Positions 42,914 to 51,564 of a DNA stretch of 64,000 nucleotides are shown here, piece by piece. Within the stretch, counting starts at the first letter, position 1; each line of letters opens with the position of its first letter. The stretch is from the NCBI GenBank assembly GCA_003999685.1, contig CP021222.1, positions 3,224,001 through 3,288,000 of the forward strand, read 5' to 3'. This DNA is from Taiwanofungus camphoratus. Taxonomy: Eukaryota > Basidiomycota > Agaricomycetes > Polyporales > Taiwanofungaceae. The position numbers were made by a program, and so were the translations under genes. The notes under the pieces were generated by a model that made no database searches, was not told the origin of the DNA, and saw only the letters and a program-made list of their open reading frames with translations.

Positions 42914-43021
42914 CGCAGATGATGGTGAAAGTACGAGGAGAAGGAAGTGAGTGAGCCTGGTGGCTGGTGCCGCGGAGTGTTTCGTTTCGCCTTTCTCGAT
43001 CGAGAAACTAGTTCCCACGGT
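42914..43021. promoter_or_regulatory. bidirectional promoter between SWIM-RING gene and RER2
   Basis: Only 108 bp separate the two ATGs, so 5' UTRs must be very short or overlap the opposite gene. No known motif is recognised. Confidence 0.5.
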
Positions 43022-44263
43022 ATGATATTCCAGCTCATTTCCCGCTGCTTCAGATGGCTCGCCCGCAAAGCATCCAGCAAAATCCAGGATGCTGTCCTGA
43101 CTATCCTTGCTGCTGGCCCGGTCCCGCGGCACATTGCTTTTGTTATGGATGGGAATCGGCGTTATGCTCGGTTACACCATAAACAAATCTCAGAAGGCCA
43201 TTCAGAGGGCTTCCTCGCGTTGCGACGGGTATGTTTAGACATCTCTACGCGTTTATGCACCCGTCTTATTCTCACTTTTTTCTTCATGCAGATGCTTGAA
43301 ATATGTATGCAACTTCACGTGCGCTGCGTCACCGCTTATGCATTTGCAATCGAGAATTTCAAGCGTTCCCCGGAAGAGGTCGATGCGCTGATGAATTTGG
43401 CCGTAGAGAAACTAGTGGAAATATCTCAGCACGGGTGAGATGATTCCAATATTCATTCAGACGACCTCTCGATGCTTACTCGCACACATAGCGACTTGCT
43501 TGACGAGTACGGCGTAAGGCTGAATGTGCTCGGAAAAACAGAGCGTCTTCCACCCAAAGTGCAGGCAGCAATACACAAGGCGGAGAATATGTCACGGAAC
43601 AATAATAGGTAAGGGAACTACATAGTAATTGGCGCTACCCACGGAGCACCCTTCCATGCAAGATACGCAACTTCTGTCGGTTTGGCACTAATTTGCATGT
43701 GCTAGATCTGATGTCCTGTGTTCCATCCTCCTTATCACCCCTTCCGTTCTTCTATGGCTGGTTCCACAGCTGGAGCTGACATACATCGTTGTTATCATAG
43801 GGCAATTCTAAACATCTGCATGCCTTACGCGGCGCGTGACGATATCGCCACGGCCGTGGAATCTGCCGTGCGACTTGCTGTCGAGAAAGGTGGCCACCGG
43901 TGAGCACTGTTTTTTCCACGTTCACATGACCTTTGCCTGCTGACTCTCTTCGGCCTCAAAAGCGAGATAACGGAGGAAGACATTGATGCCCAGCTCATGA
44001 CATCAGTTGTAGGGAGTCCCCCTCTTGATGTCCTGATCCGTACAAGTGGCGTGAAGCGCCTCAGCGACTTTCTTCTGTGGCAGGTGGGCTATCCTGCAGG
44101 CGTACATATTCAATCTTGAACGCTCACGGGCCTCGCCTGATGTTAGTGCTGTGAGAATACTCAGATACACTTTTCGACCACGTATTGGCCAGACTTTGGT
44201 CTGCGGGACTTCATACCAATTATTCTAGACTACCAGCGGAAGGTCTGGTCACCACCATCATAG
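43022..44263 (+). CDS. RER2: dehydrodolichyl diphosphate synthase (cis-prenyltransferase)
   Basis: Six exons: 43022..43228, 43292..43434, 43492..43608, 43801..43899, 43963..44083 and 44147..44263, giving 267 aa. It condenses isopentenyl diphosphate onto farnesyl diphosphate for dolichol in the ER. Visible motifs: [14 protein letters not shown] (Asp43 is the catalytic/Mg Asp), [38 protein letters not shown], and [20 protein letters not shown]. In this family an NgBR/Nus1-type partner subunit is usual; none is in this window. The 192-nt intron 3 is long for the window. N-terminal hydrophobic residues may bind membrane. Confidence 0.93.
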
Positions 44264-44514: not shown

Positions 44515-46958
44515 TCATTCTACCGCATATCGCTCGTGTTGTCTAATTGTCGCTTGACATCTAAGGCTTTGCCCTGGCCCACTTATAGCAAATAAATACT
44601 GTCGACCTCTCGGCATCATGATCGAGTCCAAGGTATCCTCTATGCGCGAGAGCGGCTTATAGAGATCCACATCCGTCGTCTGCAAAAGGTGTTTCTGTAC
44701 ACTGAGTAAGCACTCCGAATTACTAGAGAAGCGTGCAAGGAGTAGCTCTACCTTCACAATGGCGAAGAGATCGTCCTTCGTGAACGGCTTTGGCAGGATT
44801 TCCTTCAAGCCAGTTGGAAAATGTCTTTTTATCTCGCATAGGCTTGATCTGGTGATCATAGCAATAACGGGAGCCATACTGCCGAGCTTTCGAATCAGTG
44901 ACCTTGTTGAAACGTCATAGTGCTTGGGCCCAATGATGTTCTGTAGATAAGGACGAAATATCAGCTCCGCGCTTCTCAGGATGGGAGATAAAGGATACCA
45001 CGAAGACAAGGTCACAATTCTCAGGGTTCATCTTGTTGACGGTATCCGCACCGTCAGCTCCAACGTCAACCGTGCAGCCAAAACTTTTCAAGTACTTGCT
45101 GACCAGGTGACGGTTCATTTGATCGTCGTCGACCAGTAGCACATGCGGATGCATCCTCCGCCTTGGCGCCCCTAGCAATCGCTGCATGCTCAGCTTCTGA
45201 GAATTGTTCGGCCGTTCGTTCGGGCCCACAGCACGGCTCCCATCGCAAGGAGATGACGCTGGTTCACCGAATAGGTCAATTGCTTCGCCTGCCAACTGGG
45301 ACATTTCAATCCGACCTTGAAGGTAATGAAAGACTTCTGTTACACGTGGACGCTTTTGCCATCTCTCATGCCAGCAGGCTTGTATCAGATCCCAAACGCC
45401 GTCTGAAAGCCCGTGAGTGGTTGCCTCGAGAGGACGATGAGGTCTTTCTCCCTTAAGTACTCTGCATATGACTGTAGCATCTCGCGGATACTCATGAAAA
45501 GGGATGTGGCCTGCGAAGACCTACGTAACCTCAATTCGAAATATCGATATACAGTAAGCCGACGACATACCTCCCACATAACCATAGCCAATGCATATAT
45601 ATCACTTTCTCGAGAAACATGTGAATGCTCGCGACCAAATCGTTCAGGTTCCAGAAGTTCTGGTGCCATCCATCGGGCCGTACCATTCGTGTTGTCAGAG
45701 GCGGACATTATATTCATCGTATCCGGGTCGTAGACCACATTGGTGAGACCAAAGTCGGCCAAGCATGCACAGCGCTTGTCATTGATGAGAATGTTCGCCT
45801 TGTGATGGACAACAATGATCAGCGCAAGGGGGCTGATGTAGGGTTGAAATTTTCTGACCCCTTTTAAGTCACCGTGTATGACTCCGGCGCGGTGCAAGTA
45901 CGCAAGGCCGCTCACGACGTCAACAAGCTATAGGATGCCTACTCAGTGTCATTCATCAATATTACGCGAGGGCTAGTCACCAGTTTCGGCCGGTTCGCTC
46001 CGGGTGTTTTCCTCAAAAAATGTGTGATGTTCCCGTTGGCCATCCATTCACTTACTATGCACAGGGGAAAGAGACTGGTGTTGACTCCCAAAAAGGGTGT
46101 GATGTGCGGATGTGACAAGCGTTTCCAGACGATGGCTTCCTTGCTGAAGTTCTGATCACAAAGACGTATGACTATTTCTGCAGTCTGACATGAAACCTAC
46201 TAACCTTGCGAATCTTTTGCAGATCGGCTTGTTCATAAACACGGAATGCCTTCAGAGCCACACTCTTATTTTGATACCGTCCGGACCACACGTCCGCAAA
46301 TCCACCAGAAGCAACTGGCAACTCGTTGACCTTTACCAAGTCGCTGCTAGATAAAATCGTGGACGATGGAAAAGTTCCTGTGTTTGCACACAGTCTTCGC
46401 AAAGTATGGAATGCTCTGGTGTATAAACGACAACTCTTTTCCATTCTGTCCATAGCCTACATTTGGACAACTCAACTAAAAACCAAAAAAGTGAATAGTT
46501 GCGTACCTGATCTAATAGGTCCATGAACGATGCTGCAGCACTGTCTTCCATGGTCATCAACGCAGCGATCCGGTCTTTGGAAGAGAGTATAGATTGAATG
46601 CCGTCCAACACCTCGTCATCGGGCTGCAACGGCGACACAAATAGTGTTCCCGCAATCATTGGGGTACGATCTGGTTCCTGGAGATCCGTACACGATATAA
46701 ATCTTCAGCGGGATCAAAAACAACACGGCACAAACAGGTTTCGGAAGCTCGTTTGGAAGAGTCCTAAGCAGCCTCTCCGTAGCCTCTTTCACGCTTGTCC
46801 ATCTCACAAGAGCAGTCATCATATCCCATGACGACCACTGCGTCATGCATCCATGCAGATCCTGACACCATCTAGGAGTTTAATATGCATGTTTAGTGAG
46901 CAGACTTTGAACAAGTAGATCAGTACCTTTGTGCCGCCATGAGAATGTCAACGTTCAT
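44515..46958 (-). CDS. TKL-type protein kinase fused to a SKN7-derived degenerate receiver domain
   Basis: Ten exons: 46958..46927, 46871..46736, 46677..46507, 46456..46205, 46151..45981, 45927..45859, 45798..45571, 45520..44999, 44940..44752 and 44694..44515, giving 649 aa. An N-terminal helical region is followed by a kinase domain at about 150-422: glycine loop ASGGFADVWSGR, VALK (Lys182), HGDLKGAN (Asp274), DFG (Asp292), RWMAPELLEPERFG. It looks catalytically complete. About 55 linker residues later comes a receiver domain, 479-595: HVLLVDDDQMN (acid pocket), KSFGCTVDVGADG, then NII where receivers have the phosphoacceptor Asp (Asn528), and ILPKPFTKDD (Lys578). The kinase C-lobe and the start of the receiver lie in one 522-nt exon with no stop, so the fusion is direct. 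The start codon is the least certain part; more N-terminal exons may lie at 46975-47355. It is 1.6 kb downstream of SKN7, same strand. Confidence 0.85.
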
Positions 46959-48593: not shown

Positions 48594-51564
48594 TCACTCT
48601 ACGACCTCGAAGCGGCTCCGCTTGGGATCTCGGCCGTCGCCGGCGTCGTCGAGGGGCCGCTTGCCGTCCGCGGTGCCCTCGAGGGAGCCGATGCCCATGA
48701 ACGACTCGCCGTTGACGAGGTTCTGGAGGATGAGCGTGTACTGCTCGTCCGTGAGGCCCATGCCCGCGAGCGGGTTGATCTTGCCGTCGTCCTCGCCGAG
48801 CGAGAGGCCGCCGAGCGGGTGCGCGCTGGACGCCTGCACGCTGAGCGCCTGGTCGAAGCTGCTGTCCGAGAGCGGCGGGATGCCCACGGAGCGCGGCACT
48901 TTTGACATTGTCTGGATGACCTTGAGGTGCATCAGGTGTTTCTAGGCAGGGCGTCAGAACCCCGGGCGGTGGGAAAATCATGCAGAGTGCGGTCTCACCT
49001 CGAGCATATCCAAGAGACCGTCCTTCGTGAACGGCTTCGGCAGAATGTCATTCATGCCTGAGGAGTAGTATTTGATGATCTCGTTCGGCTTCGAGTTGCT
49101 CGTCATAGAGATAATAGGAGTCATGTGGTCGAACTGGCGGATCAGTGACGTTGCTGAGACACCGTCGAGCTTCGGCATTACAATGTCCTGCAGGCACGAA
49201 CAACGTGTGAGTCTTCCATGCCCACGCCCACGCCCACACCCACGGACAAGCAAGGCACATACCATGAGGACCAGGTCGTATTTCTCGAGGTTCATCTTGT
49301 TGACGGCACCCACGCCGTCGACCGCGACGTCGATCGTGCAGCCAAACACCTGCAGGAACTTGCTGGACAGGCGGCGGCTCACGGCGTCGTCGTCGACGAG
49401 CAGCACGCGCGGGGGCACGGCCCACCCGGGGACGTACGTCGACCGGCGCACGCGCAGCTTCTGTGCGGGCGTGCCCGCGCCCGACGCGCCGGGGCCGGCC
49501 CCGCCGTCGTCAAACCGCGACGGGCCCGCGTCGCTGATCGGGTACGGCTGCTGGCGGCCGGCCTCGTCCTCCTGCTCCGGGTCGCCGCCCATGCCCTGCG
49601 GGGTGGGCATCACGACGGCGTTGAGCGTGCTCGCGTCGAAGCTCCAGTTGCCGTTCTCGTCGTCGAGCGTCGACTTGGGCATGAGGTGCCCGACGGTGAA
49701 CACCTGCAGGCCCTCGTGGCTCAGGCTGCTGTTGTTCACCGCGACGCCGTACCGCGCCGCGTCGTCGGTGCCGCCCCCGCCCCCGCCGGTTGTGCCGGGG
49801 AGGAAGAACGCGTCCGTGTCGAAGCCCGTGCTGTCTGCGCCGGGGAGGGATGCAGCTTGGGCTTGCGTTTGGGCCTGGGCGTGCGCGGCCTGGCCCTGGG
49901 CCGAGGTGGGCCGCGCCCGCGAGAGCTCTTCGATGCGTGCGAGCGCGTCCTGGCGACTCATGGGCCGCGCGGGCGTGTCTGCGCCAGGGACGAGGCCGGC
50001 GGCCGCGGCCATGATGCGGGATGCGCTCGAGGGGGGACAGCCTGGGCCCGCGGCGGCCGTGCCCGCGGGCGCGGCAAATGACATCCCTGCGACTTCTGCG
50101 CGGCGGGAGATCTCATTCATCTGTGCGAGCGATGCGCGTGCGACGTCGCCGTCCGGATAGGCGCCCATCATGCGCTGCGCCTCCTGTGCAGGCAGAAACG
50201 GGTTCGCGTCGGAGAAGCCGGCCTGGTTCGAACTGGACAGCTGTTCAGTCTTCACTTTGCCTAGAACGGGACAGGAGGACAGAGCCACATTGACCGGGAC
50301 CGAGACATGAGAGAGAGAGAGAGGGGAGGAGAATCGCAGATGCGTCATTAGTGTGGATTTAGGTTACTACGATGAGGAGACACCCCCACCATTCTCCAGC
50401 TGCAAGAAGTACTGTATCAAATTCTGCATCAAACCGTCCTGCTGCGCCATGTTCCGCTGAAAGTTCACCATCTCCCCCAGCACGTTCTGGTAGTTGTTCT
50501 CGAGGTTGCGGATGTGCGCGGCCATCTCTTCCTGGTCGCGCACCATGCGGTCGATCTGCGCCTGTAGCGCCTCGACCGTCGCGCTGCCCGTGGTCGGGCT
50601 GGGGGACACGCCCCCGCGCGCCGCGGATTTGCGTGCGGCAGGGACCTTGCGCTTGATGTTCTCAAGCGCGTCCCGCCGGTCGACGTGAAAGTCGGGATGT
50701 CGGAACGTCCAACTCTATTCACATTTGTTATTTTCTCGATGTACGATACAGGAGCACGAGTACGACCCACGTGTTCTCCAAACTGGTTATCATCCGAGTT
50801 CTTCACCTGCGTGAGAAAAAAAAAGGCGAGAGATTAGCAAAAAGGGCGCAGCCGATAGCAAGAGGCACAAAGAGAAGGAAAAAACGCACCTTGTGAAAAT
50901 CATACTTGTTGAGTTGGCGGACGAAGCTGGCGAAATTGGAATGCTTGAACATGCGGGGTAGAATGGACTTTGTGAACTCGTTCATGTCCTTGACGACGAA
51001 GCAATCGCCCTGGGGCCCCCAGGAGACGACGTGGGACCAGGAGGTGTCCTCGAGCATTCTAGCGATGAGGAGGGAGGGAGGGAGGGAGAGAGAGAGACAA
51101 GGCGATCAGTGAAGACGGGGCAGAGATGGGGGGTAAATTCACTTGTAGAGCTTCTTGACAAAGTCGCTGGTGGAGGGCATGCCGTCCTCGCCCTCGTGCT
51201 TGACATGGCTGGAGGAGTCGGGCTGGGAGGGCGGGGCGGGGTCGCGGTCCATGTGTTTGGATCTAGAATCCGAGTGGCGGAGGGGCGGGGAGATGTCGTC
51301 ACGGGAGCTGGAGGTGCGGTGGGTGGGCCAGGGCAGCTGGGAGGAGGCTGCGAGGGAGGCGGGGAGCTGTGCGGCGGTGTTGGAGAGGGAGGGGTGGGGG
51401 TAGGTGGGCGGGGGATAGCGCGCGTTTGCGGGGATGTGTGAGATGGGGGGGAGGGTGTTGTTCCTCGAGAACGAGGAGAGGTGCAGCTGGGACGGGGGCG
51501 GGAGCTGGGGCGATGTGAAGAGCTGGCGCTGGCTGAGGCCGGAATACTGACCAGACTGCTCCAT
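48594..51564 (-). CDS. SKN7: SKN7/Prr1-type response regulator transcription factor
   Basis: Seven exons: 51564..51143, 51058..50890, 50806..50771, 50714..50384, 50260..49263, 49187..48999 and 48941..48594, giving 830 aa. HSF-type DNA-binding domain at about 130-235 (FVKKLYKMLED, MFKHSNFASFVRQLNKYDFH, WTFRHPDFHVDRRDAL), then a coiled coil (VEALQAQIDRMVRDQEEM..), a long Ala/Gly/Gln-rich linker, and a receiver at about 600-720: RVLLVDDDAVSRR, DLVLM|DIVMPKLDG with phosphoacceptor Asp653, and ILPKPFTKDG. Family knowledge: acts downstream of the HOG-branch histidine kinase relay in oxidative and osmotic stress. The intron directly before the GAC codon for Asp653 is shared with the neighbouring kinase gene. 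The 998-nt exon 5 is very GC-rich. Confidence 0.95.

Follow-up and report, generated by a model that had tools for sequence, protein, structure and literature searches.

We identified in Taiwanofungus camphoratus a chimeric gene (KR) in which a TKL-type kinase is, at the level of sequence, fused in frame to a receiver domain derived from the neighboring SKN7-like gene. With moderate confidence, we regard the captured 3' part of SKN7 as having been kept as a noncatalytic docking or bait module for a partner or an attacker. Unless a contig is named, positions are those of the window, which is the whole stretch of 64,000 nucleotides that was analyzed, and the features are collected in Table 1.

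Table 1 Features of the kinase-receiver gene, its SKN7-like neighbor, and related chimeras
Feature	Position	Strand	Basis or remark
KR gene: TKL-type kinase plus SKN7-derived receiver	44515..46659	-	Splice model, 8 coding exons, 587 aa; Pfam; own aligner run gives identical model
KR N-terminal region and kinase N-lobe to mid C-lobe, exons 1 to 5	45571..46659	-	
KR exons 1 to 5	46659-46507, 46456-46205, 46151-45981, 45927-45859, 45798-45571	-	
KR fusion exon: kinase end, linker of ~40 residues, receiver start	44999..45520	-	
KR receiver intron 1	44941..44998	-	Position as in SKN7 intron 49262-49188
KR codon AAC (Asn) replacing phospho-acceptor Asp (GAC in SKN7)	44938..44940	-	SKN7 alignment, solved receivers
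KR receiver intron 2	44695..44751	-	Position and length (57 nt) as in SKN7 intron 48998-48942
KR last exon	44515..44694	-	SKN7 likeness in first five residues only
KR segment homologous to SKN7 49463-48928, including two introns	44681..45199	-	blastn
SKN7-like gene (HSF DNA-binding domain plus receiver)	48594..51105	-	Pfam; 5' limit approximate
SKN7 segment, source of the KR receiver copy	48928..49463	-	blastn, protein alignment
C10_1228: TKL kinase plus CRIB plus CLA4/PAK-like kinase	C10:1228097-1231551	+	Open frame, Pfam
C10_1236: kinase plus tail like a C5 gene	about C10:1237.9-1235.4k	-	

Structure of the kinase-receiver gene

The splice model of KR contains seven introns, all of them GT-AG and 50 to 60 nt long, and its frame is free of stops. 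A sequence-only reading of this DNA had claimed that the kinase C-lobe and the start of the receiver share one 174-codon exon without a stop, and the model agrees, as the 522 nt of exon 45520-44999 hold both with zero stops. The two other structural claims of that reading, a single protein frame and a TKL-type kinase, are likewise borne out at this level, the first by the eight-exon model (46659-44515), which reads through without a stop, and the second by the Pfam family PK_Tyr_Ser-Thr, which matches residues 99 to 356 (E value of 7.4e-45; 153.7 bits against a cut-off of 23.1), the TKL label of the family resting on this match together with our own reading of the sequence. Residues 418 to 527 match Response_reg (E value of 8.6e-13; 48.9 bits against a cut-off of 30.2), and the Pfam search found no HSF domain in the protein at E values of up to 0.1. 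KR is, by its open frame, one chimeric gene, and since the fusion exon is open, we infer a single transcript. The first codon of the model is the ATG at 46659, and an earlier 5' end at 46958 gains neither support nor contradiction. The linker between the domains was compared with the tails of the kinase paralogs, and a kinase origin for it was dropped, as the likeness is not significant (118 of 2000 shuffles were equally good).

The kinase keeps the catalytic motifs VALK, HGDLKGANI, DFGL, and APEL. Its glycine loop, SGGFAD, is not fully canonical and departs from the usual consensus GxGxxG, which makes kinase activity less than certain.

Two observations concern other genes. A neighboring plus-strand gene at 42929-44119, read from roughly joined open reading frames, resembles undecaprenyl diphosphate synthase (Prenyltransf; E value of 2.4e-25). 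In the whole genome, the heme peroxidase family PF00141 gave only two exon matches at E values of up to 1e-6 (three candidates scored) and no loci, which we take to be few for a white-rot fungus and perhaps to indicate a brown-rot type.

Origin of the receiver

The SKN7-like gene lies 1.9 kb upstream of KR on the same strand and matches both HSF_DNA-bind (E value of 8.3e-30) and Response_reg (E value of 9.1e-26). With blastn scores of +1/-1, KR and SKN7 segments align at 64% identity over 539 columns (E value of 2e-52), and with +2/-3 at 67% over 404 columns (E value of 1.5e-26). Counted from QKL, the two proteins are identical at 62 of 130 residues, including 56 of 112 within the receiver domain itself, and the two introns within this part stand at matching places. 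The likeness lies far beyond chance. These results uphold the proposal of the sequence-only reading that the receiver was copied from the adjacent SKN7, and the alignments identify the copy as one of DNA, introns included. The exons are 71 to 73% alike in a gapped alignment and the introns are near chance (z values of 2.0 and 3.7 against 200 shuffles), in comparisons for which the SKN7 coordinate of one exon end was off by a single base. The last exon of KR shows no resemblance to the SKN7 tail after KHLLQ; homology of the exon to that tail was rejected, with 672 of 1000 shuffles equally good and 963 of 1000 when the first five residues were left out.

The KR receiver is 50% identical to that of SKN7, versus 22 to 30% for the four other receivers of the genome that were compared. 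A tree of the KR receiver with SKN7, suggested earlier as a check, was also run; KR and SKN7 group together (support of 87/89) apart from these four, with branch lengths of 0 for SKN7 and 1.19 for KR, in a tree of six rows, of which the program marked one as a long outlier and one has only 70 residues. A PF00072 search of the genome gave at least 13 exon matches at E values of up to 10, on six loci, and more receivers may exist because only 11 candidates were scored.

Loss of the receiver active site

In the two alignments listed with receivers of solved structure, RcsC and the regulator of RpoS, the Asn of KR at the phospho-acceptor position (Table 1) is matched with an Asp, which we take to be the phosphorylated one. 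In the SKN7 alignment, the conserved Thr is replaced by Ile, and the acidic residues and the Lys of PKPF are kept. Residues of the Skn7 type also persist at two further sites, as Cys at DD+17 and as Ser at D+10. The domain belongs to the receiver fold family by sequence but lacks the phospho-acceptor Asp and the conserved Thr/Ser of a functional receiver, and judged by these residues, it is dead. As Asp has become Asn and Thr has become Ile, ordinary phosphorelay input through the KR receiver is unlikely and was set aside, and the earlier proposal that the fusion links the phosphorelay to a Ser/Thr kinase does not hold as it was put. Residues of helix 1 and of the beta5-alpha5 region are not significantly better retained than the rest of the receiver (18 of 32 versus 17 of 47; Fisher P = 0.11), which leaves a kept Ypd1-binding face without support.

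Related kinases and their captured tails

The kinases nearest to KR in the genome are found on contigs C10 and C9, three on C10 being 58 to 59% identical to it and one on C9 49%, and five phase-0 introns are common to KR and these relatives. A kinase tree with 13 of 15 rows gave no branching order among KR and the three C10, two C9, and C6 kinases. Synonymous divergence between the KR receiver and SKN7 (0.7 to 1.3) is below that between KR and its kinase paralogs (1.8 to 2.1; LWL85, with NG86 undefined), so the kinase duplications probably came before the SKN7 capture.

A captured tail was recognized in 3 of the 15 modeled kinase loci, 11 tails having been viewed as lists of open reading frames only. 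The tails on related C10 kinases had been overlooked in the sequence-only reading. In C10_1228, the kinase exon continues without a stop into a CRIB domain, which is followed by a CLA4/PAK-like kinase (Pfam PBD, E value of 2.9e-23, and two kinase stretches). The likely source of this tail is the gene at C5:859058-860976, and the CLA4/PAK name of both is our reading of the combination of CRIB and kinase. Identity between tail and source, counted in alignment columns, is 50/57 in the CRIB, 55/153 in the linker, and 169/267 in the kinase, and the five introns of the captured part have phases 0, 2, 1, 1, and 0, in an order matching five of the six introns of the source. The captured kinase has HRN for HRD and DFA for DFG, both of which are intact in the C5 source, and its glycine loop is lost. 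Relative to the source, dN is 0.08 to 0.10 for the CRIB and 0.25 for the dead kinase, with dS at 1.4 to 3.3; because dN is low against the high dS, the dead kinase seems constrained, although this partly reflects the constraint on the source gene itself.

In C10_1236, the tail agrees with a gene at C5:1262k in 95 of 182 residues (52%). Both kinase and tail could be modeled only with a frameshift, one in each, so this locus may be broken or misread. The tail weakly resembles DUF6741, but this assignment was rejected, as the matches (19.1 and 17.0 bits) stay below the Pfam cut-off of 27. No captured tail is recognizable in the close C10 paralog C10_1178, whose 76-residue tail matches only its own locus in the genome and no Pfam family.

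As the tails of KR, C10_1228, and C10_1236 stem from three different genes, they represent three captures whatever the kinase tree. Where a judgment is possible, for the KR receiver and the C10_1228 kinase, the motifs indicate that catalysis is lost, and these two genes, as predicted from sequence, have the layout of a kinase fusion, with an apparently functional kinase and a nonfunctional domain.

Other TKL kinases form a cluster on both strands of C9, at about 642000-672000, where some models contain in-frame stops or frameshifts. Two near-identical and more distant kinases at C3:1036700-1040265 have HGT or HGN where KR has HGD and are for this reason perhaps pseudokinases; a guessed N-terminal piece of theirs matched no Pfam family.

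Fate of the captured receiver

The explanation that we favor is that a TKL-type kinase took up the receiver-coding 3' part of SKN7, as DNA with its introns, and that in the receiver the phospho-acceptor Asp and the conserved Thr would afterwards have been replaced, with the kinase motifs kept. The captured part may then act as a docking or bait module that directs the kinase to the partners of its source protein, which for KR would be Ypd1 or the partners of Skn7, or to whatever attacks them, and the recruited kinase could phosphorylate the partner or itself. The lost active-site residues and the long KR branch, a sign of fast evolution beside the zero length of SKN7, would also suit a decaying leftover, in which a fusion that is open by accident left a working kinase with a tail that is under relaxed constraint or of no use, a possibility that we consider unlikely. 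Pairwise dN/dS between the KR receiver and SKN7 is 0.35 (NG86), 0.44 (LWL85), or 0.23 (YN00), and since the SKN7 protein has hardly changed, we estimate that an equal split of dS could put dN/dS on the KR branch at about 0.7, as decay would predict. Against decay, the 130 receiver codons contain zero stops and zero indels relative to SKN7, the splice sites are kept, and the C10_1228 chimera has a similar tail with low dN. In 20,000 neutral simulations of 136 random substitutions from SKN7, a test that depends on how the divergence is split between the KR and SKN7 branches, 11.1% kept the frame without a stop, which decay can accommodate; among these same simulations, 6.5% were at least as identical as observed but only 0.9% were both open and at least as identical, and 5000 simulations with other mutation weights gave 6.8% (frame open) and 2.8%. 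Constraint on the KR receiver is, from these comparisons, likely but weak.

Two further explanations concern what the fusion does or whether it is expressed as one. The receiver could remain tied to stress signaling without Asp phosphorylation, either by way of the Cys at DD+17 and the Ser at D+10 or by binding Ypd1, which we find improbable. The alignment shows this Cys and this Ser retained in KR, and they lie outside the active site, as discussed for Skn7 (there Ser or Thr at D+10) in passages of Bourret et al. (PMC8510515), in which Skn7 oxidative-stress signaling is described as independent of Asp phosphorylation; however, two kept residues are expected by chance in a domain that is 50% identical, and the role of the Skn7 Cys is itself given there as a hypothesis. 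A very unlikely alternative is that there are two transcripts, with a kinase message that normally ends, or is spliced, ahead of the receiver, while the SKN7 fragment forms a separate pseudogene. This would be compatible with the likeness of the kinase to its C10 paralogs, which is not significant past about residue 360, whereas the SKN7-like part begins some 40 residues later. It fits poorly with the one exon that holds both domains in the kinase frame and with the downstream SKN7-type introns, which stay in frame up to the stop.

Comparison with known systems

The sequence-only reading, by which fungal receivers are normally attached to histidine kinases or to Skn7/Ssk1/Rim15-type proteins, named Rim15 as a known carrier. 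With Rim15, a fungal Ser/Thr kinase with a C-terminal receiver was already known, according to passages of PMC8510515. As described there, ascomycete Rim15 receivers have Glu, Ala, or Gly for the Asp and basidiomycete Rim15 keeps it, and pseudo-receivers amount, Rim15 excepted, to about 3% in fungi. KR shares with Rim15 a Ser/Thr-type kinase with a C-terminal receiver and, with the ascomycete forms, the missing phospho-Asp. It differs in its kinase, whose matches are PK_Tyr_Ser-Thr and TKL paralogs, in its receiver, which descends from SKN7, and in having Asn at the position of the Asp, a comparison made with the published description of Rim15. With Skn7 itself, KR has in common the receiver sequence, the two intron places, and the Cys and Ser named above, but it has a kinase and no HSF domain, and both Asp and Thr are replaced.

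A parallel in layout is offered by the plant kinase fusion proteins (Sr43, Lr9, Pm4, and tandem kinases), which in published descriptions combine, like KR, an active-looking kinase with a noncatalytic copy of a signaling domain, and whose second domain has been proposed, in passages of PMC10260397, to be an integrated decoy. Here the host is a fungus, the proteins are known from sequence, and the genes from which the captured parts stem are identifiable within this one genome. An integrated decoy has likewise been proposed, in passages of PMC12258605, for Sordariales NLRs with a CHK-2-derived kinase domain, where a fungal signaling domain is also copied onto another protein; the carrier there is an NLR, whereas in KR it is the kinase.

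TKL and FslK kinases are reported in parts of PMC2838846 and PMC3937382 as families of mushroom-forming fungi with many paralogs and unknown function. The main text of PMC2838846 contains neither "receiver" nor "response regulator," and that of PMC3937382 does not contain "receiver." Titles and abstract beginnings among the literature matches listed gave no TKL-receiver or TKL-CRIB fusion, although Table S4 of PMC8510515 (unclassified fungal regulators with enzymatic domains) may record such proteins.

Implications for TKL kinases of mushroom-forming fungi

By analogy with plants, some TKL kinases of mushroom-type fungi might be kinase fusion proteins working like plant integrated-decoy receptors, an idea that we put forward as quite unlikely. 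An active kinase would then have been grafted repeatedly with dead copies of conserved signaling hubs (the SKN7 receiver, CLA4/PAK with CRIB, and others), and these copies might bait the molecules with which mycoviruses, bacteria, mycoparasites, or rival strains attack those hubs. If it were true, the large TKL expansion of these fungi would acquire a testable role.

KR adds, beside ascomycete Rim15, a further fungal kinase whose predicted C-terminal receiver lacks the phospho-acceptor. TKL kinases carrying the 3' parts of other genes offer a concrete docking or decoy hypothesis for the expanded TKL kinases of mushroom fungi, and this hypothesis names the partners, which would be Ypd1 and Skn7 partners for KR and Cdc42/Rac-type GTPases for the CRIB chimera.
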